A DNA stretch of 64,000 bases. It comes from Deltaproteobacteria bacterium. Lineage in GTDB: Bacteria; Bdellovibrionota_B; Oligoflexia; Oligoflexales; Bog-1112. Of the stretch, positions 1,188 to 59,823 are shown piece after piece. How positions within the stretch are numbered: the first letter of the stretch is position 1; every line of letters begins with the position of its first letter. Below the pieces are notes generated by a model that was given only the letters and a program-made list of their open reading frames with translations, searched no databases and was not told the DNA's origin. The DNA is taken from assembly GCA_016186945.1 (NCBI GenBank), contig JACPKR010000025.1, positions 19,108 to 83,107 of the forward strand. The letters run 5' to 3'. A program made the translations under genes and the position numbers.

Positions 1188-1349
1188 TTGGAGGAAGCAG
1201 CTGGTAACGCATAAGCCGCTTGGGGCAAATAGGGAGAGGGGGGGGGTGGGGGGGCGAGGGAACCGTCGCTCCCCCAAGGGATTTCTTGGAGGAACCAGCT
1301 GCGCAGTTTCCTCCAAACCACCTCCTTGCCCCAAGTGGCTTACGGGCTG
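1188..1349 (+). repeat. Family B repeat, near full-length copy B1
   Basis: taacgcataagccgcttggggcaa ... ttgccccaagtggcttac termini; core cttggaggaaccagctgcgcagtttcctccaa; extra partial core at 1188. Confidence 0.8.
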
Positions 1350-2857: not shown

Positions 2858-3026
2858 CTATAGTATTTGGGAAAAAGAATTTGTGGAGAGGACCTTTTTT
2901 GAAAAAAAGTTCCCCTCCACACCTCCCCCCAAAAAACTTCAAATACTGAAGTTTTTGAAAAGGGGGTTGGGGAAATAACTTTTTTCAAAAAGTTTGTCCC
3001 CAAATTGATTATCTTGAACACTATAG
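2858..3026 (+). repeat. Family A repeat copy A1
   Basis: ctatagtatttgggaaaaagaatttgtggagagg ... aaattgattatcttgaacactatag. Confidence 0.9.
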
Positions 3027-3033
3027 AAACTGT

Positions 3034-4497: not shown

Positions 4498-7400
4498 ATG
4501 ATAGCGAGAATCATACGACTTTGTGCATCACATCCAGGGCTGACGATATTTCTGGTATTGGCAATTTCCTTTCTTACAATCTTCTCGCTTAGGAAATTGC
4601 CGTTGGACGCCTTGCCTGATTTGTCCGACACACAGGTGATTGTGTTCTCAGAGTGGATAGGGCGTTCTCCTGATCTTGTCGAAGACCAAATCACTTACCC
4701 CCTTGTGACAAGTCTCCTGTCATCTCCAAAAGTGAAATACGTTCGTGGTCTTTCCATGGTGGGAGCCTCTCAGGTCCTTGTCATTTTCCAGGAAGGCACA
4801 GATCTTTATTGGGCACGCTCGCGAATTGCTGAAAAACTCGCTTCCGTCTCTTCGCTTCCGCAAGGGGTTGTTCCGACATTAGGTCCCGAAGCGACCGGTC
4901 TCGGTTGGGTTTATCAATACGCCTTGGTCGACAAATCGGGGAAACATGATCTTCAGGAGCTTCGGTCCTTACAGGACTGGAACTTACGTTTCGCTTTGCA
5001 GGCGGTTCAAGGTGTCGCGGAGGTGGCGAGTGTTGGTGGTTTTGAAAAACAATATCAGATCCTGCTGGATCCACTAAAACTACAAGCCTTTAATATCTCC
5101 CCTCTACAAGTAACTCGTGCGGTTCGAGGAGGGAATCAAGAAGTTGGCGCCAACGTCCTAGAAATGGCAGGAAGAGAATATGTCATTCGAGGACGTGGTT
5201 ACGTTAAGACGATCGCCGATATTCAAAAAATTCCTATCACTGTTTCCAAAAAAGGACGAGTCATCGCTGTAGGCGATATCGGAAGCGTGCAAATTGGCCC
5301 CGCTCCTCGAACGGGCGCAGGAGAATTTGACGGAGAAGGGGAGACGGTAAGCGGCATTGTCGTGATGCGCATGGGCGAAAATGCGCTCAACGTCATCGCT
5401 TCGGTCAAGGAAAGACTCGAAGCACTCAAAAGCTCTCTTCCCGAAGGAGTTGAAATCGTTCCCGTCTACGACCGATCGGATTTGATTCATCGAGCCATCG
5501 ACACACTCAAACGGGTTCTGGTCGAAGAGATCGTCGTTGTTTCCGCGATCGTTTCGATTTTTCTTTGGCACGCACGGGCAAGCTGGGTTGCTATTTTGCC
5601 TTTGCCGATCGCGGTACTGCTCTCGTTTTTACTCATGTTTTTTTTCGGTGGCCTGACTGTGAACGTGATGTCTCTCGGCGGAATCGCTCTCGCGATTGGA
5701 GCCATGGTGGACGCCGGGATTATTTTAGTGGAAAACGCCCACAAAAAACTTGAAGGCCGCAACACCAAAGATATGTCTGAAAAAGAACGGCGGCATCTTA
5801 TTGTAGAAGCTATGGTAGAGATGGGAAAGCCTCTCTTCTTTTCCCTTCTTGTGATCACCGTCTCTTTTTTACCAATATTCGCCTTGGAAGGAAGAGAAGG
5901 CCGCCTCTTTAAACCCCTTGCTTTTACGAAGACGTTTTCGATGGGATGGGCCGCTATCTTGGCGATTACTCTGACCCCCGCATTGGCAGTGTTGTTTCTA
6001 AGGGGAAAGTTTGTCCATGAGGATGAACATATTATCAGCCGTACGCTTCACCGATATTATACTCCCGTCATCGCTTATGTAGTTCGTTTTCGAAAAGCTG
6101 TTTTGGCGATTGCTGTGCTCCTCATGTTAGCAACCGTTCCTATTTTCAAAATGATTCAGACCGAATTCATGCCACCTCTCAATGAAGGCACGATCCTTTA
6201 TATGCCAACGGCAGTCCCTGGCATGAGCATTGACACGGCTATCGAAATCTTGCAGAAGCAAAATACTATTATTAAAGCTCATCCTGAAGTTGCACATGTG
6301 TACGGCAAAGCTGGACGTGCCAAATCGGCAACCGATCCAGCTCCCATCAATATGTTCGAAACGGTGATCACGCTCAAACCGAAAGAAGAATGGAGAAATG
6401 GCATGACTTTCGAGAAAGTCATTGCTGAACTTGACCAAAAACTGAAATTTCCAGGAATGCCCAATATCTGGTGGATGCCCATTCAGACACGAATCGAAAT
6501 GCTCTCGACTGGCGTCCGAACCGCTGTTGGAATCAAAGTCCTAGGGTCAAAATTAGAAGAGATCGAAAAAACAGCTGTCGATATCGAATCCGCCTTGAAA
6601 GGTGTGTCTGGTACAAAAGCTGTTTTCGCCGAACGGACCCAAGCGGGTTCTTATATTGATATTGACATAAAAAGAGAAGCTGCCGCGGTTTACGGTCTGA
6701 ATATTTCTGATGTTCATTCAGTTGTGGAAACTGTGATTGGTGGCAACATAGCGTCGACAAGTGTCGAAGGTCGGGAGCGTTACGGAATTCAGATTCGCTA
6801 TGCTCAGGATTTTCGCAAAAATCTTGAAGCCATCCGAGATGTCATTATTCCCACGCCTACGGGCAATGTAGTAACACTTTCCCAAATTGCCGACATTAGT
6901 GTCTCCTCTGGCGCACCGATGATCAACAGTGAAAACGGAAAAATTCTTGGTTTTGTCTTTGTCGACGTCGATAAAAATATTGGTCTGGAAGAATACGTTG
7001 ACGCTGCAAAAGAAGCGATAGCTAAAAATGTGAAATTTTCAGATGGGACACGAATCGAGTTTTCGGGACAATTCGAAGCCTTTTTAAGCGCCAAAAAAAC
7101 TCTTCAAGTGATTGTGCCCGTCACTCTTATCTTCATCATTTTTCTCCTGTTTCTTAACACGATGTCGGCATGGGAGACCCTCATCGTTCTTCTTGCCGTG
7201 CCCTTTTCACTCATTGGGGCCTTCTGGCTGATCTGGTTGCTGAACTATAAACTTTCCATTGCCGTCTGGGTTGGTCTATTGGCGCTGGCGGGCCTTGATG
7301 CAGAAACGGGGGTCGTCATGCTTCTCTACCTCACGCGGGCTTACGCCAAGAGAATTGAGGCAGGTGTGAAACCAAGCCATGCGATGTTAAATGACGCTAT

Positions 7401-7632
7401 ACACGAAGGAGCAGTCCAACGTATCCGTCCCAAACTTATGACCGTTGCGGCCGCTCTCATTGGCTTGCTTCCCGTCATGTGGAGCACAGGAACCGGTTCC
7501 GAAGTTATGAAACGCATTGCTGCTCCGATGGTGGGTGGGATCATCACGTCAGGAATACTCGAACTTCTTGTGTATCCTGCAATTTTTGCGATTTGGAAAG
7601 GGGCTGAAATCAACAATAAGAGGAAACTATAG
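4498..7632 (+). CDS. cusA: CusA/CzcA-family heavy-metal RND efflux transporter
   Basis: 1044 aa; RND motifs, FMPPLNEGTILYMPTA, LDAETGVVMLLYL. The TAG stop lies inside repeat A2. Confidence 0.92.
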   Translation: MIARIIRLCASHPGLTIFLVLAISFLTIFSLRKLPLDALPDLSDTQVIVFSEWIGRSPDLVEDQITYPLVTSLLSSPKVKYVRGLSMVGASQVLVIFQEGTDLYWARSRIAEKLASVSSLPQGVVPTLGPEATGLGWVYQYALVDKSGKHDLQELRSLQDWNLRFALQAVQGVAEVASVGGFEKQYQILLDPLKLQAFNISPLQVTRAVRGGNQEVGANVLEMAGREYVIRGRGYVKTIADIQKIPITVSKKGRVIAVGDIGSVQIGPAPRTGAGEFDGEGETVSGIVVMRMGENALNVIASVKERLEALKSSLPEGVEIVPVYDRSDLIHRAIDTLKRVLVEEIVVVSAIVSIFLWHARASWVAILPLPIAVLLSFLLMFFFGGLTVNVMSLGGIALAIGAMVDAGIILVENAHKKLEGRNTKDMSEKERRHLIVEAMVEMGKPLFFSLLVITVSFLPIFALEGREGRLFKPLAFTKTFSMGWAAILAITLTPALAVLFLRGKFVHEDEHIISRTLHRYYTPVIAYVVRFRKAVLAIAVLLMLATVPIFKMIQTEFMPPLNEGTILYMPTAVPGMSIDTAIEILQKQNTIIKAHPEVAHVYGKAGRAKSATDPAPINMFETVITLKPKEEWRNGMTFEKVIAELDQKLKFPGMPNIWWMPIQTRIEMLSTGVRTAVGIKVLGSKLEEIEKTAVDIESALKGVSGTKAVFAERTQAGSYIDIDIKREAAAVYGLNISDVHSVVETVIGGNIASTSVEGRERYGIQIRYAQDFRKNLEAIRDVIIPTPTGNVVTLSQIADISVSSGAPMINSENGKILGFVFVDVDKNIGLEEYVDAAKEAIAKNVKFSDGTRIEFSGQFEAFLSAKKTLQVIVPVTLIFIIFLLFLNTMSAWETLIVLLAVPFSLIGAFWLIWLLNYKLSIAVWVGLLALAGLDAETGVVMLLYLTRAYAKRIEAGVKPSHAMLNDAIHEGAVQRIRPKLMTVAAALIGLLPVMWSTGTGSEVMKRIAAPMVGGIITSGILELLVYPAIFAIWKGAEINNKRKL

Positions 7633-7780
7633 TATTTGGGAAAAAGAATTTGTGGAGAGGACCTTTTTTGAAAAAAAGTTCCCCTCCACGCCTCCCCCCA
7701 AAAAACTTTAGATATTGAAGTTTTTGAAAAGGGGCTTGGGGAAAAAACTTTTTTCAAAAAGTTTTTCCCAAAATTGATTA
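7627..7780 (+). repeat. Family A repeat copy A2, 3' end truncated
   Basis: ctatagtatttggg ... aaaattgatta; lacks the terminal tcttgaacactatag. Confidence 0.9.
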
Positions 7781-8833
7781 GCATGGGTAGGATTTGTTGC
7801 TTTCATTTTATTGATACTTGCCCTGGATTTGGGCGTCTTCCATCGCAAGGTTCATCGAATTTCATTGCGGGAAGCTTTAGTGTGGTCAGTCGTATGGACA
7901 CTTTTGGGTTTGTTATTCACAGTTTTCATTTACTTTGCCTACGATTACCACTGGTTTGAGCTTGGACTGACGATTGACAATATAGATGGGCAATTTTCCA
8001 ACGGATCTAGCGCAGCGGTAAAATACCTCACTGGATATATTCTTGAACGGTCGTTGAGTATTGATAATATTTTTGTCATTGCCATTGTTTTTAGGTCTCT
8101 GGCAACACCTGCCATTTACCAGCACCGTGTTTTATTTTGGGGCATTTTGGGAGCGCTGGTTTTAAGAGGTGTCATGATTGCAATCGGAGTCGAGTTGATT
8201 TCGCGATACCATTGGATACTGTATGTATTTGGTTTCTTTTTGATCATAACGGCAGTCAAGATGTTAGTCATTAAGGAGCACAATGATCCCACTCAGAATA
8301 AGTTAATCAAATGGCTTAAACACATTGCTCCCTTTACAGATCGGTATCATGGGCAATATTTTGTAGTTCGGGCGGGATCCAAGCGTTCACATTTGGCACA
8401 AACTCCCGGTGGATCTGTCGAAGTGGATTTAGCTGTCGAGAAAGCGAAAGCAGGGACTTGGATGCTGACGCCTCTGGCTCTGGTGTTAGCTCTCGTGGAA
8501 ATCATGGATGTGGTGTTTGCTGTCGATTCCATTCCTGCGATATTTGCGATTACAGCAGATCCGTTTTTGGTGTTTACAAGTAACGTACTTGCGATCTTTG
8601 GTCTTAGAGCCTTGTATTTTGCGCTGGCAGGCTTGATTGACAAGTTTCGGTACTTGAAAATTTCACTGGCCTTCATTTTGGCACTTGTTGGGTTGAAAAT
8701 GGTATTCTCAAAGCATCTGAAAGATGCGTTAGGATTTGACCTTAACCTTTATCTTCTTAGTATCATTATTTTAATTTTGGCCTTTGGAATTTTGGCTTCT
8801 CTTTCGACAGAGGACGACAAGAGCAAGAATTGA
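7778..8833 (+). CDS. TerC-family integral membrane protein; 5' end abuts repeat A2 and the start codon is unclear (first TTG at 7811)
   Basis: In-frame LAWVGFVAFILLILALDLGVFHRK from 7778, preceded by a TGA in the repeat; TerC helices and DxVFAxDSIPA motif. Confidence 0.85.
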   Translation, partial: LAWVGFVAFILLILALDLGVFHRKVHRISLREALVWSVVWTLLGLLFTVFIYFAYDYHWFELGLTIDNIDGQFSNGSSAAVKYLTGYILERSLSIDNIFVIAIVFRSLATPAIYQHRVLFWGILGALVLRGVMIAIGVELISRYHWILYVFGFFLIITAVKMLVIKEHNDPTQNKLIKWLKHIAPFTDRYHGQYFVVRAGSKRSHLAQTPGGSVEVDLAVEKAKAGTWMLTPLALVLALVEIMDVVFAVDSIPAIFAITADPFLVFTSNVLAIFGLRALYFALAGLIDKFRYLKISLAFILALVGLKMVFSKHLKDALGFDLNLYLLSIIILILAFGILASLSTEDDKSKN

Positions 8834-13724: not shown

Positions 13725-13836
13725 GTTTGGCAAAAAGGGAGAGGGGGGTTGGTGGGGCGAGTGAAGCGTCGCCTCCCCCAAGGGATTTCTTGGAGGAACC
13801 AGCTGCGCAGTTTCCTCCAAACCACCTCCTTGCACT
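13725..13836 (+). repeat. Family B repeat copy B3
   Basis: tttggcaaaaagggagaggggggttggtggggcgagtgaagcgtcgcctcccccaagggatttcttggaggaaccagctgcgcagtttcctccaaaccacctccttgc. Confidence 0.8.
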
Positions 13837-13842
13837 AATTCG

Positions 13843-15240
13843 CTATAGGTCAAAAATCTTGCCTGGATTCATAATCCCCTTGGGGTCAAAAAGCTGCTTG
13901 ATACCTTTCATGTAGGAAATTTCCAGTTCTTCACAGACTAACTTCAAATCATCTTTCTTGAGTAACCCTATTCCATGTTCAGCACTGATTGATCCTTTAA
14001 GCTCGTGGACTATAGAAAAGATACGTCGCTCCAAGAGCTGAGCTTCCTTTATAAAGGTATCATGATCAACTAACCTGTCAGCACTATAGTTAACGTGGAC
14101 ATTTCCGTCGCCTATATGCCCGAACATGACAACTTCAATCTTCGGATCCTTTTTCTCCAGAGTTTTGTTCACTTTCTCGAAGAAAACACATAAGTCCTTG
14201 ATGCTGAGGGAAATGTCGTTCTTCCTTACATAACCATGGCTAAGGCTCTCGGTTATGTTCTCACGCAAAGCCCACAAGTCTCGAAATTCCTGTGAGCTGC
14301 TAGCAAGTACAGCATCGCGTATCAGTTCTTTCTCAAAAGCTGTCTCAAGAAACTGTTCCATGGATAAAGAACTAAGATCTTCTTCTATTTCAATCAGCGC
14401 ATAGTAGGGAAAACGCTCTGCAAACGGCAATTTCAAACCTGAAAAAGAGATGAGAACCTTTCCTACAGCTAGATCCGAGAAGAATTCCAACGCCGTCACA
14501 GACATGTTCGATTGATGGCTCAGCGCGAGCAAGTCAACGACCTTGGGAAAGGTTTCGACACCGACACAGGCAAGAGTGAGTTCCCTCGGTTTCTTGGAAA
14601 GTTTAAGCGTGGCCCTGGTGATGACCCCCAAAGTTCCTTCGCTCCCCACAAAGAGGTACATCAGTGGATACCCTGCATTGTTTTTCCGGAGCGCACGGTT
14701 AAGGTTCAAAACTTGACCGCCAGCAAGGACCACCTCTAGTCCGAGAACCTGCTCCCGGGTTCCCCCGTACCGGATAAATTTCAGCCCCCCCGCGTTCGTA
14801 GCCAGGTTGCCCCCAATCTGGCTACTGCCCCTCGCTCCCAAATCGACAGCGTAGAATAGGCTTTCCTTTGCGACAGCTTCCTGCAAAGCCTGGGTTGTAA
14901 CACCCGCTTCCACTTCGACCGTCAAACCAACGGGGTCAACGTTTAGAACCTTGTTCAGCCTACCAAGGGAGAGGATGACTTCTCCCTGTTTGGCTACGGC
15001 ACCTGCCGCCAATCCAGTACGCCCTCCACTCGGGACGACTGGAATTTGATGTTTCTGACAGTAGGCAAGTATCTTGGAAATTTCTTCCGTATGATTAGGT
15101 AACAGCACACAAGAAGCAAAAGTTTCCTGAGGTTTTGACCAGTCTTTGGAATATTCCTGAACCTGCTTGGGGTCTTTCAAAACATGCGAGGGTCCGAGGA
15201 TGGCCTCCAAGTCATCAATGTTTTTCTTTGTCACTTTCAT
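13843..15240 (-). CDS. FAD-linked oxidase (GlcD/D-lactate dehydrogenase family)
   Basis: VVPSGGRTGLAAGAV, GSSQIGGNLATNAGGLKFIRYG, C-terminal HGIGLLKKD...FDPKGIMNPGKIF. Confidence 0.88.
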   Translation of the reverse strand: MKVTKKNIDDLEAILGPSHVLKDPKQVQEYSKDWSKPQETFASCVLLPNHTEEISKILAYCQKHQIPVVPSGGRTGLAAGAVAKQGEVILSLGRLNKVLNVDPVGLTVEVEAGVTTQALQEAVAKESLFYAVDLGARGSSQIGGNLATNAGGLKFIRYGGTREQVLGLEVVLAGGQVLNLNRALRKNNAGYPLMYLFVGSEGTLGVITRATLKLSKKPRELTLACVGVETFPKVVDLLALSHQSNMSVTALEFFSDLAVGKVLISFSGLKLPFAERFPYYALIEIEEDLSSLSMEQFLETAFEKELIRDAVLASSSQEFRDLWALRENITESLSHGYVRKNDISLSIKDLCVFFEKVNKTLEKKDPKIEVVMFGHIGDGNVHVNYSADRLVDHDTFIKEAQLLERRIFSIVHELKGSISAEHGIGLLKKDDLKLVCEELEISYMKGIKQLFDPKGIMNPGKIFDL

Positions 15241-17513
15241 TTTAGGAAACGCTCCGTCTTCACAGCTTTATGAGCGGTAATATTAATCAGGCTCGTGATT
15301 TCCTGGACCGAGGCTTCCCTCTGCAGGGAGTTTGCCGGCTTATTGAGTCCCACCAGAATGGGGCCTGTGACCTCGGCTCCTCCCACATGCTGGAGAAGTT
15401 TGTAACTTATGTTAGCAGCTCCCAAGTTGGGGAAAATGAGAATGTTGGCATTCCCTTTCAGATTTGTGAATGGAAATTCCTTTTCTCGTAAGTGCTGATT
15501 GAGAGCGACTTCCACCTGCATTTCCCCATCCATTTCAAGAGCTGGGTTCCGTTCCCTGACAAGACTAACTGCCTTCGCCACTTTTGTGGCCTCCGCATGT
15601 TTGCTTGTACCGAAACTTGCATAGCTTAGCATAGCCACCCGTTTAGGTTCCTGTGTGTATTCCTCTGCCAGTTTGGCACTTGCCAAGGCGATGTTAGCAA
15701 GTTCCTCGGCAGAAGGATCGACGTTGATGGTGCAGTCGGCAAGGAACAGAAGACTTTGCTCTTTCACCACTATGTAGACACCTGCCAGGGTCGCTCCTTT
15801 TTCCGCCCCGATAATTTCCAAGATGGGTCGGACGGCATCGACATAGGCGCTGGTCACACCGTTCACCATCGCATCCGCATCGCCCATCTGTAACATGACG
15901 GCAGCAAAGTAGTTATGATTGGTAATGAGAATATCGGACATGGTTCGAGAGACACCTTTTCTTTTCCTCAATTCGTAGAGAACTTCGGTGTAGCGCCCCC
16001 GCCTTTGATCTTTCATCGGGTCGACAATTTCAATACCGCTCAGGCTTTTGATCCCGAGTCGATCGGCGGATTTTTGAATCTCTTTCTCTCTTCCCAGCAG
16101 GCAAATTTGAATTTCCCCGTCGTCAGCCACTTGTTTTGCGGCGCTCAGAATTTTCGGGTAAGCTCCAAAGGGGATGACCACTCTAGGCTTTTGCTTCTCG
16201 ACAGTCTTGTATGTGATCTCCTTGCGCAGTCTTCGCATCAGTCGCCTGCTAGGTCCCAGGATTTTCTCGATTTGCTCCTTGTACTCCTCGATGTCGACCT
16301 GAAGACGTGCCATACCTGTTTCCATCGCTGCTTGTGCTACGGCAGGAGCGACCCGCAGAAGCACGCGTTGATCGACGGGTTTAGGGATGAGGTAGTCCTT
16401 TCCGAAAATATAACGGCTCGTCTGTTTGTACTGAGCCAGAACTTCCTCGGGAACGCTCTCCTTGGCCAATTCTGAAATTGCCTTAGCAGCAGCGATACTC
16501 ATTTCATCGCTTACCCCCTTCGCTCTTACGTCAAGGGCTCCGCGAAAAATGTAGGGAAAGCCCAGGACGTTGTTGACCTGGTTGGGATAATCTGAGCGCC
16601 CTGTAGCGAGAATGATATCCTTTCTTGTGTCTCTGGCCAGTTGAGGATCAATCTCCGGGTTAGGGTTGGAAAGAGCAAAGACGATGGGCTGATTTGCCAT
16701 CTTCTTTAACATCTTCGGGGTCAGAATGTTGGAGGTTGACACACCTATGAAGACGTCGGCCCCTTCCAGCGCATCTTCTAACGTTTTTAAGGAGCGCGAT
16801 TCTATGGCAAAGCGTTTCTTATATTCGTTCAAATCGCTCCGCCCCGTGTGAATCACCCCCTGACTGTCGCACATGATTATGTTTTTAATACCAATTTTTC
16901 GAAAGAGAGATGCACAACCTATCGCCGCAGCACCGGCTCCACTGAAAACGACACGAGCGTCTTCGATGGACCGGCCTGAAATTTCGCAAGCATTGATGAA
17001 AGCTGCAGCTGCAATAATTGCTGTACCATGCTGGTCATCATGAAAAACGGGGATCGACATTTTCTCTCGAAGTTTTTCTTCAATGTAGAAACACTCAGGC
17101 GCCTTGATATCTTCAAGATTGATTCCGCCAAAGGTTGGTTCCAGGGAACTTACGATCGTTATGAACTCATCTGGATCTTTCGATGCAATTTCCAGATCAA
17201 AAACGTCAATGTCCGCGAATTTCTTGAAAAGGACTGCCTTGCCCTCCATCACAGGCTTGGCAGCATAAGGCCCGATGTCGCCCAACCCCAACACAGCAGT
17301 ACCATTTGTAATCACACCTACGAGATTGCTTCGTATGGTGTAGCGGAACGAGTTGTCCTCGGATTTGTGAATTTTCCGACAAGGGCCGGCAACCCCGGGG
17401 GTGTAGGCAAGAGATAAGTCGTATTGCGAGTTCAACTGCTTTTTTGGTTGCACGCTTAACTTACCAGCACTTGGATACTCGTGGTATTCAAGCGCAAGTT
17501 TTTCGTAATCCAT
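15237..17513 (-). CDS. maeB: NADP-dependent malic enzyme with phosphotransacetylase-like C-terminal domain
   Basis: 758 aa; [26 protein letters not shown]-like second half. Confidence 0.94.
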
Positions 17514-17530
17514 ATAGACTTTCTCCTATT

Positions 17531-17693
17531 GTATTCAAGATAGTCAATTTGGGGAAAAACTTTTTGAAAAAAGTTCTATCCCCAAGCCCCTTTTCAAAAA
17601 CTTCAATATCTAAAGTTTTTTGGGGGGAGGCGTGGAGGGGAACTTTTTTTCAAAAAAGGTCCTCTCCACAAATTCTTTTTCCCAAATACTATC
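17531..17693 (-). repeat. Family A repeat copy A3
   Basis: Reverse orientation: gtattcaagatagtcaatttggggaaaaac ... ccacaaattctttttcccaaatactat. Confidence 0.9.
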
Positions 17694-25252: not shown

Positions 25253-25296
25253 GTCTCTGTTTGAATTTTCGGCAATTTGTCAAAAATCTTTACATT

Positions 25297-25460
25297 CATT
25301 TGAGAAAAAGGATTTGTGGAGAGGACTTTTTTTGAAAAAAAGTTCCCCTCCACGCCTCCCCCCAAAAAACCTTAGATATTGAAGTTTTTTGAAAAGGGGC
25401 TTGGGGAAAGAGCTTTTTTCAAAAAGTTTTTCCCCAAATTGATTATCTTGAATACTATAG
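25297..25460 (+). repeat. Family A repeat copy A5
   Basis: tttgagaaaaaggatttgtggagagg ... gattatcttgaatactatag. Confidence 0.9.
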
Positions 25461-25477
25461 ATACGCTGCACATGAGG
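25458..25477. repeat. 20-bp direct repeat, left copy (abiE region)
   Basis: tagatacgctgcacatgagg, identical to 27110-27129. Confidence 0.9.
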
Positions 25478-25487
25478 AGAGTTTTGA

Positions 25488-26360
25488 CTACATGTTTGAC
25501 AAGTTTTTACGTATTTCTTTGCCTGATTCGCCTATCAAAAAAACCACAAAAGACCATAGATCATCCTGTGCGGCAATTTTGTTAATCTCTTTTAATGGCA
25601 AAAAGCGAAGCATCTCTCTTTCAAATTCCGATTTAAGACTGCTATCTTCCGACAGCAACCTGAATCGTTGGGAGAAAAGATCCCAAAAATATTTTTGGGT
25701 TAATTTTCTGTCCTGAAGTTTGTTAGGGATCAGCCCAAATCTTGGTTTTAGTCCTTGTCCATGGAGCCAGATCATATCCCACAAATCTCGGTACTTTACT
25801 CTATTGGGACGTAGCGCAAAGGCCAACAGCTTATCAACATAAATTTCTTCACGACTTTGAGCCTGCAAAACCAAGCCGGATGTTCCCATATCAACACCAT
25901 AGGGATTGAGCAGCATCATAGGTTGTTTTTCATATGAGGGTACAGCACAAATATCTATATTAATTCGTTGTGCTGGGCGAGCTTTTTGTTTAGGTCTAGT
26001 ATCAATTTTAACTTTCCAAGTGTCCACATTTTTGCTCTCTTTTACAGGTTGGCTGACGCTTACTTTTAAGCCATATTTTTTATTCAAGTCATCTATTAGT
26101 AGATCTCCCATTGTAGATAAACTATTTCGAGAAAAATTTTCTCCGCCAGTAAAATCCAAATCTTCACTTAGCCTAATTCCCCCATAGCAGATTCTCAGAC
26201 AGGTACCGCCTATAAATGTTAAGTTGGTGAGCAGGCTGCTTTGGCTTAGTGTTCTTAAAATATCGTGATGCAGCAGTTCTTTTTCAACGACAGTCTTTAA
26301 CGGAGATAGATCATGTCGGTTTTTCAATGCTTCTGTTAGTAGCCGGTCAAATAAGTTCAT
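25488..26360 (-). CDS. AbiEii/AbiGii-type nucleotidyltransferase toxin
   Basis: FIGGTCLRICYGGIRLSEDLDFTG nucleotidyltransferase motif; paired with an AbiEi-like gene. Confidence 0.88.
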   Translation of the reverse strand: MNLFDRLLTEALKNRHDLSPLKTVVEKELLHHDILRTLSQSSLLTNLTFIGGTCLRICYGGIRLSEDLDFTGGENFSRNSLSTMGDLLIDDLNKKYGLKVSVSQPVKESKNVDTWKVKIDTRPKQKARPAQRINIDICAVPSYEKQPMMLLNPYGVDMGTSGLVLQAQSREEIYVDKLLAFALRPNRVKYRDLWDMIWLHGQGLKPRFGLIPNKLQDRKLTQKYFWDLFSQRFRLLSEDSSLKSEFEREMLRFLPLKEINKIAAQDDLWSFVVFLIGESGKEIRKNLSNM

Positions 26361-26913
26361 TTATAGTATCCTCATCGATTAAGTCACGATTTCGACCTGT
26401 CGCTTTCATATCTCTCAAGGCCAAGGTAACATTGGCACGCCATAACCCACAGTCATGGTCGTAAGTAAGCTGCTTTATAAGATCAGAGGGTTTTTGGTTG
26501 GTGTGAACAAACTCAATAATTCCAAAATCGTTGCAATTAATGATGTTGCTCCTGCCGGACGACATAATTGATATTCGGTTTATCGGGATTTGTGAAATAA
26601 CCCCCGCATCGCTTAACACTGTTTCTAAACTGATATAATTAAGTTCATCGGCTCTGATCAAAGCTGCCGCATGAAATAGCAGCAGACCATCTGGTGGAAG
26701 AGCTTTTTCAAAAAGATATAGTCCTCGACATACACGAACAAGCAACCCGGAGTGTACAGCTCTGCTGAACAAGGTCTTAAAAGCTGAGTCAGATAAATTA
26801 GGATAAAGAGGTCGTAAATCACGCAGCGTAAATAGATAATGTTTATCATTGGCGTTTTTAGAGAGCCATTGATCAAGCTGTTTTATCGGCTGCATCTCGC
26901 TGTAACTCCACAT
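26347..26913 (-). CDS. AbiEi-family antitoxin/transcriptional regulator (start 26913 or 26895)
   Basis: wHTH-like N-terminus (YLFTLRDLRPLYPNLSDSAFKTLFSRAVHSGLLVRVCRGLYLF); overlaps the toxin gene by 14 nt. Confidence 0.82.
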   Translation of the reverse strand: MWSYSEMQPIKQLDQWLSKNANDKHYLFTLRDLRPLYPNLSDSAFKTLFSRAVHSGLLVRVCRGLYLFEKALPPDGLLLFHAAALIRADELNYISLETVLSDAGVISQIPINRISIMSSGRSNIINCNDFGIIEFVHTNQKPSDLIKQLTYDHDCGLWRANVTLALRDMKATGRNRDLIDEDTINELI

Positions 26914-26914
26914 T

Positions 26915-26935
26915 AAGTTACACTTAGTGTAACTT
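26915..26935. promoter_or_regulatory. Probable AbiE autoregulatory operator
   Basis: Perfect inverted repeat aagttacac-tta-gtgtaactt directly upstream of the antitoxin ORF; extra half-site tgtaact at 26901-26907. Confidence 0.65.
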
Positions 26936-26969
26936 TTTGTATAGCATAAGTCAAAATCATTCTCAAGAG

Positions 26970-27046
26970 TAACCCGTAAGCTATTTGTGGCAAAGGGACA
27001 AAACCACCTCCTTGCCCCAACGGCTTGCCACAGGCGGGTTACGCAA
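26970..27046 (+). repeat. Family B-derived repeat copy B6 (degenerate)
   Basis: taacccgtaagc ... ggacaaaaccacctccttgccccaacggcttgccacaggcgggttacgc. Confidence 0.6.
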
Positions 27047-27064
27047 TCATTCGGACGAGATATG

Positions 27065-28933
27065 CTACGGGGTGCAAAGCTGCATTTCGAATTCCGGGTA
27101 GTCAGCTTCTAGATACGCTGCACATGAGGGGGTTAAGCGCTGTTTTTTGGTGAAGTCAATATGCAAGGCTCTAAAAAAGTCGCTAGAATGGACATCGGTC
27201 TCGTCGATGTTGACCAAAGAACCGTCATCAATTTCGCCAGAGATGTCTAATAGTCCCCAACACCCGACATTTGCGGCATCGTTATGGCCTGCTTTAGCAG
27301 CAAACAAGTCCGCGAAATCTTCGCTTGAGTAAAATCCTTCAGAATAATGAGGTGTTTTTTCTGATCTTATTGCTTGGGGCCTTTCGGGGTGCAATTGGGC
27401 CAGGCAGTTAATAGTCCTCTGAAGGATACCAAAATCCATGCTATTCCCCTTGCTAAGAATCGCTCTCTCCACTTGATGCCCTAATTCATGCTTGGCAATT
27501 TGGGGACCAAAACGAGAATTTGCTAGCCAGCTTAACTTTATTAGAGGCAAGATGGAAAAAGAAGCATCATACGGTTTAATTATCCCCTCGATTTTTTTGA
27601 TGAGTTCATTGGAATCCTCATATACCTTCTCCAGTGGTTTCTCGGGATCGTACACGTCAAAATCAAACGCAGAAATGATTATTCCTACTCTCCGATAGAC
27701 AGACGTATGTGGCAATTCGTCAAGGTAGTCATCAAAAGAAGAGTCGAGATCCTTCAGTAAGGCTTCTTCAGAGTCTGGAAATTCTATTTTTACTGCTTCG
27801 ACTTCTTTTTTAATCCCACCAGCGGTGTCTAGAAATGTCTCCAGATACTGGCGCGTATCCCTTTTCGCATCATCTACATATCTACTCTTGTCTAATTCAT
27901 TTGCCTTAGCGTTCATATACAAAACAAGTTTCAAATAAATTCCAAACCTTTCTAACAACTTTTTTTCTGCTTCTGTGAACTCTTTTCCCAAGCTTTCTTT
28001 TGTCTGCGCAACTGCTTCTTTCAGCTTTTTTTCCTCTGCCATTATTCTTGCAGCTTCTGCAACTTCAAGCTTCCCTTCTGTCTTTTTGCTTATATAAAGC
28101 AACAAATCGAGACCTCGTGATGCCATAAAAAATTTTTCCATAATAAATTTCGTTATACCTTCCCCCGATCTAAATTTCTTAACGATCGGATCTCTTAAGA
28201 TGAGTGCTGTGGCATCCTTTAGGCTTGGGGTGCGGGACACTTCCGCAAGACTTTCTTCAAAATGCTCCGTTTCATGTTTTATAGCTGCCCCTAGGTCTCC
28301 ATATTTGAAAGTGAAGTAAACCTGAATATCACCGTTCGCCGCAGCAAATTGCACAATGTCTAAGAAAAATTTGGAATTCAAACTTTTGTAAAAAACAAGA
28401 GCAATATCGGAAAAAGGGTCATTTTTATTTCCAGCCGTCCTTTGGATCTCCTCTTCAAACTCCTGCTTCAGTTGCGGGAAACCGTCTTCGCTTAAAAGGA
28501 ATGCATTATCTTTGTAAAAAGGTTTGAAATACTTTTCCATAGAAAGACTCGTGGCTAAGAGGATGGATGCGCCTGGTGGGATATCTCTCCTTATATTCCG
28601 GTCGAAGTCATTAACAAATTTCGCAAGCTCAAGAAAATTTTCCCTTTCCCTCTCGAGAAGTTTTGCAAATTTATCCACTAGTGGTGCAATCGTCTTGTCA
28701 GGAATGACGATTGCACTTAACACCGTCATGCGTCCATAGAGATCTAGTAAGTTGTGCCCGTCCTCATTTGAGCATATAGAACGCACGCATTCCCTATAGA
28801 GATCTCTATATTCTTGGGATGGTCGGGAATCAGTATGCAGCATTTTAGGGATGATCGAATCTATGGGTGTGCCTTTCTTAGTTGAAGTACATGAAATTAG
28901 TGAAATGAAGGTGAACAAAAATGCTGTTTTCAC
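27065..28933 (-). CDS. Putative lipoprotein with two HExxH motifs (possible zinc metallopeptidase)
   Basis: Lipobox FISLISC; KHETEHFEE and KHELGHQVE; downstream SSEDFADLFAAKAGH. Confidence 0.55.
   Translation of the reverse strand: MKTAFLFTFISLISCTSTKKGTPIDSIIPKMLHTDSRPSQEYRDLYRECVRSICSNEDGHNLLDLYGRMTVLSAIVIPDKTIAPLVDKFAKLLERERENFLELAKFVNDFDRNIRRDIPPGASILLATSLSMEKYFKPFYKDNAFLLSEDGFPQLKQEFEEEIQRTAGNKNDPFSDIALVFYKSLNSKFFLDIVQFAAANGDIQVYFTFKYGDLGAAIKHETEHFEESLAEVSRTPSLKDATALILRDPIVKKFRSGEGITKFIMEKFFMASRGLDLLLYISKKTEGKLEVAEAARIMAEEKKLKEAVAQTKESLGKEFTEAEKKLLERFGIYLKLVLYMNAKANELDKSRYVDDAKRDTRQYLETFLDTAGGIKKEVEAVKIEFPDSEEALLKDLDSSFDDYLDELPHTSVYRRVGIIISAFDFDVYDPEKPLEKVYEDSNELIKKIEGIIKPYDASFSILPLIKLSWLANSRFGPQIAKHELGHQVERAILSKGNSMDFGILQRTINCLAQLHPERPQAIRSEKTPHYSEGFYSSEDFADLFAAKAGHNDAANVGCWGLLDISGEIDDGSLVNIDETDVHSSDFFRALHIDFTKKQRLTPSCAAYLEADYPEFEMQLCTP
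27110..27129. repeat. 20-bp direct repeat, right copy (within lipoprotein gene 3' end)
   Basis: tagatacgctgcacatgagg, identical to 25458-25477. Confidence 0.9.
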
Positions 28934-38732: not shown

Positions 38733-38740
38733 AGCACTTC

Positions 38741-38826
38741 TCCCAAGGAATTCTTGGAGGAACCAGCTACGCTGTTTCCTCCAAACCACCTCCTTGCCAC
38801 AAGCATGACCGCCTCCTTGCCACAGC
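38741..38826 (+). repeat. Family B repeat copy B7
   Basis: cccaaggaattcttggaggaaccagctacgctgtttcctccaaaccacctccttgcc...ccgcctccttgccac. Confidence 0.75.
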
Positions 38827-46264: not shown

Positions 46265-46392
46265 TGTGTTCCCCTATTCGGTCGTATGATTATCGTTCGG
46301 ACGGATCATCGCAATATCTATTTACCAATTTTACACAGGGATGGATGCCGCACTACGAGTTTTCTTGATTTGGACACATCAGGTGGGTACAT

Positions 46393-46559
46393 ATAGTATT
46401 TGGGGAAAAGAATTTGTGGAGAGGACCTTTTTTGAAAAAAAGTTCCCCTCCACGCCTCCCCCCAAAAAACTTTAGATATTGAAGTTTTTAAAAAGGGGTT
46501 TGGGGAAATAACTTTTTTCAAAAAGTTTGTCCCCAAATTGATTATCTTGAACACCATAG
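46393..46559 (+). repeat. Family A repeat copy A8
   Basis: atagtatttggggaaaagaatttgtggagagg ... aaattgattatcttgaacaccatag. Confidence 0.9.
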
Positions 46560-46570
46560 AAGTTTCCCGC

Positions 46571-59654: not shown

Positions 59655-59823
59655 CTATAGTATTCAAGATAATCAATTTGGGGACAAACTTTTTGAAAAA
59701 AGTTATTTCCCCAAACCCCTTTTCAAAAACTTCAATATCTAAAGTTTTTTGGGGGGAGGCGTGGAGGGGAACTTTTTTTCAAAAAAGGTCCTCTCCATAA
59801 ATTCTTTTTCCCAAATACTATAT
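59655..59823 (-). repeat. Family A repeat copy A10
   Basis: ctatagtattcaagataatcaatttgggg ... aaattctttttcccaaatactata. Confidence 0.9.

Follow-up and report, generated by a model that had tools for sequence, protein, structure and literature searches.

Accessory segments bounded by direct repeats, mostly shorter than 30 bp, account for 10-18% of the small variable segments in Escherichia coli, Staphylococcus aureus and Streptococcus pyogenes, and have for the most part been ascribed to slippage or illegitimate recombination (PMC2884548). Homology-facilitated illegitimate recombination, by which an incoming module settles beside a conserved gene and leftovers of the old allele persist, is documented in transformable bacteria and has been invoked for effector arrays (PMC5361080). 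The window analysed here, a 64-kb stretch (64,000 nucleotides) of the draft genome of a Deltaproteobacteria bacterium (assembly GCA_016186945.1, contig JACPKR010000025.1, positions 19,108 to 83,107), harbours a toxin-antitoxin operon, abiE, enclosed by two copies of a 20-bp direct repeat, one of which lies in the 3' end of an adjacent lipoprotein gene. The locus is best read as the scar of an untidy insertion, and not as a new mobile element, an attachment-site (att) core or a target duplication of fixed length. Both the AbiE system and segments bounded by short repeats are already known; the locus is a new example of them with a twist added by a miniature inverted-repeat transposable element (MITE).

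As in the small variable segments (PMC2884548), a direct repeat of less than 30 bp bounds a small accessory segment devoid of a recombinase, the difference being that one copy here lies in a gene keeping its own end and the other has been cut by a MITE. The presence or absence of abiE is seen among species only, the species being represented by one genome. The module beside a conserved gene and the apparent remains of an old allele recall homology-facilitated illegitimate recombination (PMC5361080), although the homologous anchor is hypothetical in this case. The locus resembles integrative elements at gene 3' ends in the position of the repeat and the completeness of the reading frame, and differs from them in its lack of an integrase, the unrelated repeats of the individual loci and the poorly conserved target gene. 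Neither a transposase open reading frame (ORF) nor terminal inverted repeats pairing the segment ends were found, as a transposon or insertion sequence would have. Likewise, the interrupted sequence does not continue past the outer repeat copy, as in a target duplication, the gene's tail adjoining the inner one. In agreement with the earlier note, no integrase or transposase is encoded among the ORFs of the segment, and matches to tyrosine recombinases occur only elsewhere in the genome.

The repeat and the gene that provides it are as follows:

25458..25477, plus strand: left 20-mer, a stray duplicate from the 3' end of the lipoprotein gene; the TA at 25458-25459 doubles as the end/target duplication of the MITE copy A5
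27110..27129, plus strand: right 20-mer, native copy, encoding SCAAYL, within the 3' end of the lipoprotein coding sequence
27065..28933, minus strand: lipoprotein gene, complete, 622 amino acids, with a HELGH metallopeptidase-like motif
27068..27109, minus strand: codons for the tail EADYPEFEMQLCTP, including the invariant Cys620

The two copies of the 20-mer, TAGATACGCTGCACATGAGG, are identical (0 mismatches) and the match ends exactly at both sides, the adjoining bases being a and c before and a and g after it. The earlier description of a perfect repeat, whose right copy encodes SCAAYL and which encloses abiEii, abiEi and a degenerate copy of a second repeat family, was thus accurate. At up to 3 mismatches only these two copies are found in the window (0 in 100 shuffles), and the further genomic pairs of the 20-mer which the earlier note had suggested looking for are absent from the whole 2.66 Mb assembly at the same threshold. 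It is also the sole unique exact pair of the window outside the repeat families (spacing above 40 and below 8000 bases). By an arithmetic estimate, a pair of 20-mers within 2 kb is expected about 1e-4 times per window by chance; the repeat is not a chance match.

The lipoprotein gene looks intact, and the tail EADYPEFEMQLCTP appears to be ancestral, judging from its homologues. All six distinct homologues that were compared run beyond the position of SCAAYL to a conserved C-terminal cysteine. Homologues from the same genus, family and order reach a second cysteine near the end (...SCHTLLEKYADTHIRNCF..., ...QCKEYLQNFEKNETARRIENCWK, ...QCSDYLEKYENNDTAKALQNCWK and ...ECQQGLSATYKSQSITNCFID), and the C-termini of two Halobacteriovorax homologues read ...SCQTDRVKLCPKTK and ...SCKNDVIKTCPSAN. 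Neither alignment shows any substitution of C604, which lies at the repeat, or of C620 in the tail, and a random read-through tail of comparable length would seldom match the homologues equally well (P=0.004). The structure prediction for the lipoprotein was too poor to suggest a fold (mean pLDDT, the predicted local distance difference test score, 43.9), with only residues ~581-620 above 70 by block; a predicted helix (602-611) crosses the border between repeat and tail. The Pfam search with the 622-residue protein returned no family. Hence the proposal that the insertion had replaced the gene's end by a new 14-residue tail was not borne out, and conservation of the homologues through this tail, which the earlier note itself had named as evidence to the contrary, was largely found (six of six).

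The segment between the repeats carries the following features:

25488..26360, minus strand: abiEii, nucleotidyltransferase-like toxin, 290 amino acids (Pfam AbiEii 2.6e-26; PADLOC 1.6e-94)
26347..26913, minus strand: abiEi, antitoxin/repressor, 188 amino acids (Pfam AbiEi_4 2.6e-7; PADLOC 1.1e-61), overlapping abiEii by 14 nt
26915..26935, no strand: probable AbiEi operator, a 21-bp palindrome (AAGTTACACTTAGTGTAACTT) preceding abiEi

By its sequence features the pair is a type IV toxin-antitoxin system of the AbiE type: two overlapping genes, the antitoxin first, match Pfam AbiEi_4 and AbiEii, respectively, and a palindromic operator precedes them. No difference from this system was found; with PDLC02232 and PDLC02296 as its best PADLOC matches, the pair appears to be a typical member. 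The operon was very probably acquired horizontally, since no strong homologue was detected in other genomes of the phylum and its closest relatives are on viral contigs. Among 65 genomes of the phylum this one alone contains AbiEii matches at E<=1e-20, and in the order-level survey a weak match (E<=1e-10) was seen in just 2 other genomes of 48. The nearest relatives found are encoded by three viral contigs, with both proteins 57-59% identical and an operator, GTTACACTTAGTGCAACTT, which resembles the palindrome of the window; the search of plasmids for AbiEii gave distant matches only (about 36% identity). The guanine-plus-cytosine content of abiE (0.39-0.41 vs 0.48 for the window) is weak proof of acquisition by itself because that of the lipoprotein gene is low as well (0.415).

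The left edge of the repeat coincides with the end of a MITE:

25298..25459, plus strand: A5, a TA-targeting MITE of family A whose right end is canonical and whose left terminus is missing (about 8 nt)
25253..25297, minus strand: native upstream region of a sigma-54 activator gene, conserved with a same-genus genome up to the truncated A5 end

Family A is a TA-target MITE: its very many copies in the 2.66 Mb assembly measure about 167 bp, too short for a transposase, start with TATAGTATT, end with AATACTATA (terminal inverted repeats) and duplicate TA, which is present at both borders of 36 of 43 complete copies. In these properties it is like the Tc1/mariner-IS630-type MITEs, to which it may belong, judging from the TA duplication alone. 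No relevant literature on MITEs in Bdellovibrio-like bacteria was found. Additional copies in the window include those at 2859-3028, 7628-7797, 17526-17692, 46392-46561 and 59655-59821, and some copies hold an inserted CCGCGG-type hairpin repeat. Copies of the family end with CTATA, often followed by G, and the left 20-mer starts exactly at the TA of A5; the copy in the lipoprotein gene likewise starts at a TA. This suggests, as a simple reading, that the lipoprotein 3' end was present here as a copy and that its TA was the insertion site of A5. Because a TA-targeting MITE sets the left edge of the repeat with its TA end, the length of 20 bp is no signature of the insertion step, and only the edge 25477/25478, 10 nt after the abiEii stop, would represent an original junction. 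Unlike most other family A copies, A5 has lost its left terminus, and the DNA directly to the left (AAATG..GTAAAGATTTTTGAC) is the sigma-54 activator upstream region. Transduction of flanks as a general habit of these MITEs was considered and rejected, as the flank is duplicated over 18 bp at A5 only, out of 107 family A right ends.

It had been noted earlier that the left copy is fused to the CTATAG of A5 and that the outer flanks, if joined, read SCAAYL followed by TAG. Both statements are correct as sequence (CTATAG lies at 25455-25460 and shares its TAG with the left copy). The TAG, though, is the terminus of the MITE, and neither the supposed empty site nor the precise insertion footprint is supported. 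What the analysis does support in that note is an acquired-looking abiE segment whose entry left the repeat as a scar.

The remaining element of the segment is the following:

26963..27044 (26955..27052 with duplications), no strand: degenerate family B copy flanked by the 8-bp duplication AATCATTC at 26955-26962 and 27045-27052

Owing to this duplication of its own, AATCATTC, the family B copy is a separate insertion. Duplications of 8-9 bp flank 18 of 57 full copies of the family, with 0.3 expected. Family B is a MITE-like element of ~145 bp (GTAATGCGTAAGCC..GGCTTACGCATTAC) with very many copies, among them those near window positions 1224-1345, 13729-13844 and 38737-38809 and others in L039, L046 and L054.

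We favour, with middling confidence, an illegitimate insertion of abiE downstream of the intact lipoprotein gene, which duplicated part of the gene's 3' end, the outer copy being trimmed later by A5. In the sequence of events that we infer, along with the illegitimate mechanism, the deletion and the length that the duplication first had, the operon would have been gained horizontally with its own promoter and operator and inserted just downstream of the complete lipoprotein gene by non-site-specific recombination, leaving a second copy of part of the 3' end beyond abiE, starting 10 nt after the abiEii stop. This outer copy, useless and free to decay, may then have received A5 at its TA, after which a deletion reaching as far as the conserved DNA upstream of the sigma-54 activator gene would have taken away the remaining fragment and the left end of A5, so that the 20-bp repeat is what survives. 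The deletion is probable because A5 lacks its left terminus and the conserved sigma-54 upstream DNA lies directly beyond.

Several observations weigh against this reading or limit it. An unoccupied site was not found at the DNA level in any genome or strain, and the best lipoprotein homologue, from the same genus, shares 25-27% identity and is followed by hardly any downstream sequence. The tail residues other than cysteine are poorly conserved, which makes the evidence from the tail good and not overwhelming. Nothing of the lipoprotein tail survives to the left of A5, where the similarity of the DNA to the tail is not significant (P=0.57); a longer original duplication is thus not directly visible, and no displaced tail was detected near family A termini or by blastn in the 1.93 Mb searched. 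Finally, outer copies of ~20 bp at two abiE loci could mean a process of defined length.

The scan for repeat pairs, which covered about 1.9 Mb (1.93 Mb) of the 2.66 Mb, 76-contig assembly (genome 91% complete), revealed few unique pairs, and duplications of 19-30 bp flank other cargo genes as well. By way of baseline, 400 kb of one class-level relative contained one clear unique pair of at least 19 bp outside evident paralogues. At the pst locus (L091 17356-18186, G000 C66) the 19-bp duplication AAGATGGTTATGGTAAGCG, at 17356 and 18168, brackets a 185-amino-acid ORF that has no known family and separates pstC from pstA; in the same-genus genome 4 nt lie between these two genes. Close to the second repeat is a third, partial copy, GGTTATGGTAAGC. 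At the aroQ locus (L080 6091-7503, G000 C52) a 24-bp duplication, at 6091 and 7480 (30 bp with one mismatch), encloses an AAA_14/DUF4143 gene where aroQ begins; relatives have the same upstream neighbour of aroQ. The mismatch falls in the duplicated flank of a later family B insertion, which carries the 8-bp duplication CCGAATGT/C and straddles the edge of one repeat copy. At both loci the duplicated stretch spans a gene border, both flanking genes are whole and the cargo lies between the copies.

The second abiE pair (L084 11395-15883, G000 C6), in which abiEii is frameshifted, adjoins a 744-amino-acid lipoprotein-like gene and repeats the layout of the window with a family B fragment in the place of A5: a 23-bp piece of the neighbour gene's 3' end is found at the far side (11395 and 15861), abutting the fragment. 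The near gene keeps its native end (RAIGASLSLNF vs RALGVTLSMHF in a relative), and not one out of 20000 random tails reached its score. A further 19 bp are common to the upstream region of a lexA-imuA-imuB-dnaE2-like cluster and the dnaE2-like coding sequence (names from translations). No common motif was found among the repeats of these loci. The comparison suggests that the window and the second abiE locus fit the process seen at pst and aroQ if the duplication was longer and the outer copy decayed through repeat insertion and deletion. Since the repeats vary in length and are unrelated in sequence, illegitimate recombination is preferred over a recombinase; classical end joining is unlikely because no match to Ku was found in this genome at its 91% completeness.

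The strongest rival reverses the order of events: A5 would first have truncated a resident lipoprotein gene at its TA, after which sibling DNA with the full gene and abiE restored the tail by homology-facilitated illegitimate recombination. The homologous crossover would lie inside the gene and the illegitimate join 20 bp from A5, leaving 20 bp of the old allele. A single step would thus explain the TA edge, the ancestral tail and the SCAAYL-TAG reading, and the second abiE locus shares the layout, with a family B fragment instead of A5. The process itself is known in naturally transformable bacteria and has been proposed for effector-immunity arrays (PMC5361080; PMC2884548). Yet it requires a donor allele in which abiE already lay beside the gene, which moves the original insertion elsewhere, and transformation is not known from this organism; we consider this order unlikely, if the most serious of the alternatives.

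A short stretch of the lipoprotein gene might alternatively have been copied into the junction of abiE and A5 as templated filler, during break repair or replication template switching. The third partial copy near the pst junction is in line with such copying, and at 4 of the 5 loci with repeat pairs of at least 19 bp (window included) one copy lies no more than 8 bp from a family A or B element, compared with 4% of random positions. This proximity is only suggestive, being inflated by the intergenic position that MITEs and stray copies have in common. The exact TA edge, moreover, better fits the insertion of a MITE into a pre-existing copy, and A5 stands alone among the family A right ends in its duplicated flank, so that filler seems rather improbable.

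The reading nearest to that of the earlier note, in which an abiE element inserted by a site-specific or transposase-type event, with the 20-mer as core or target duplication, and gave the gene a new tail, draws on the perfect repeat at both segment ends, and nine tyrosine-recombinase matches (eight over the cut-off) elsewhere in the genome could act in trans. Against it stand the conservation of the tail in homologues, the MITE end at one repeat edge, the confinement of the 20-mer to this site in the genome, the unrelated repeats of the other loci and the absence of a recombinase from the segment, and we regard it as very doubtful. The same low credence is given to an undescribed process that places single toxin-antitoxin or ATPase genes beside native genes and duplicates ~19-30 bp without a dedicated recombinase, with two MITE families later landing at its junctions; if this were true, the abiE locus of the window would be one of at least four products.

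A misjoin of the contig through family A in this draft, probably metagenome-assembled genome is the least credible explanation: A5 is one of very many near-identical copies in an assembly of 76 contigs and its ends could stem from different copies, but the 20-mer is on the side of A5 that faces abiE, which makes the repeat independent of a join inside it, and parallel duplications occur at other loci without family A.

The illegitimate insertion favoured here would show how a genome can gain a defence or toxin pair next to a gene that stays undamaged, and how the landing of a transposon at the scar can mimic a precise footprint. The repeated 19-30 bp duplications in one genome provide several junctions for testing ideas about illegitimate gene gain in a lineage in which no Ku was detected.

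Three other loci of the genome were observed in passing. A third AbiEi/AbiEii pair (L165 3394-6312, G000 C16) lies beside a partial duplicate of its AbiEi gene. A 48-bp repeat flanks an NTase_sub_bind/HepT-like and nucleotidyltransferase pair (L123 855-1905, G000 C17); by eye it resembles the 3' half of a transfer RNA (tRNA; CAT anticodon region), while ARAGORN called no tRNA there. An imperfect 46-bp direct repeat surrounds a 7-kb cluster that includes glycosyltransferase-like genes (L175 8995-16110, G000 C31).

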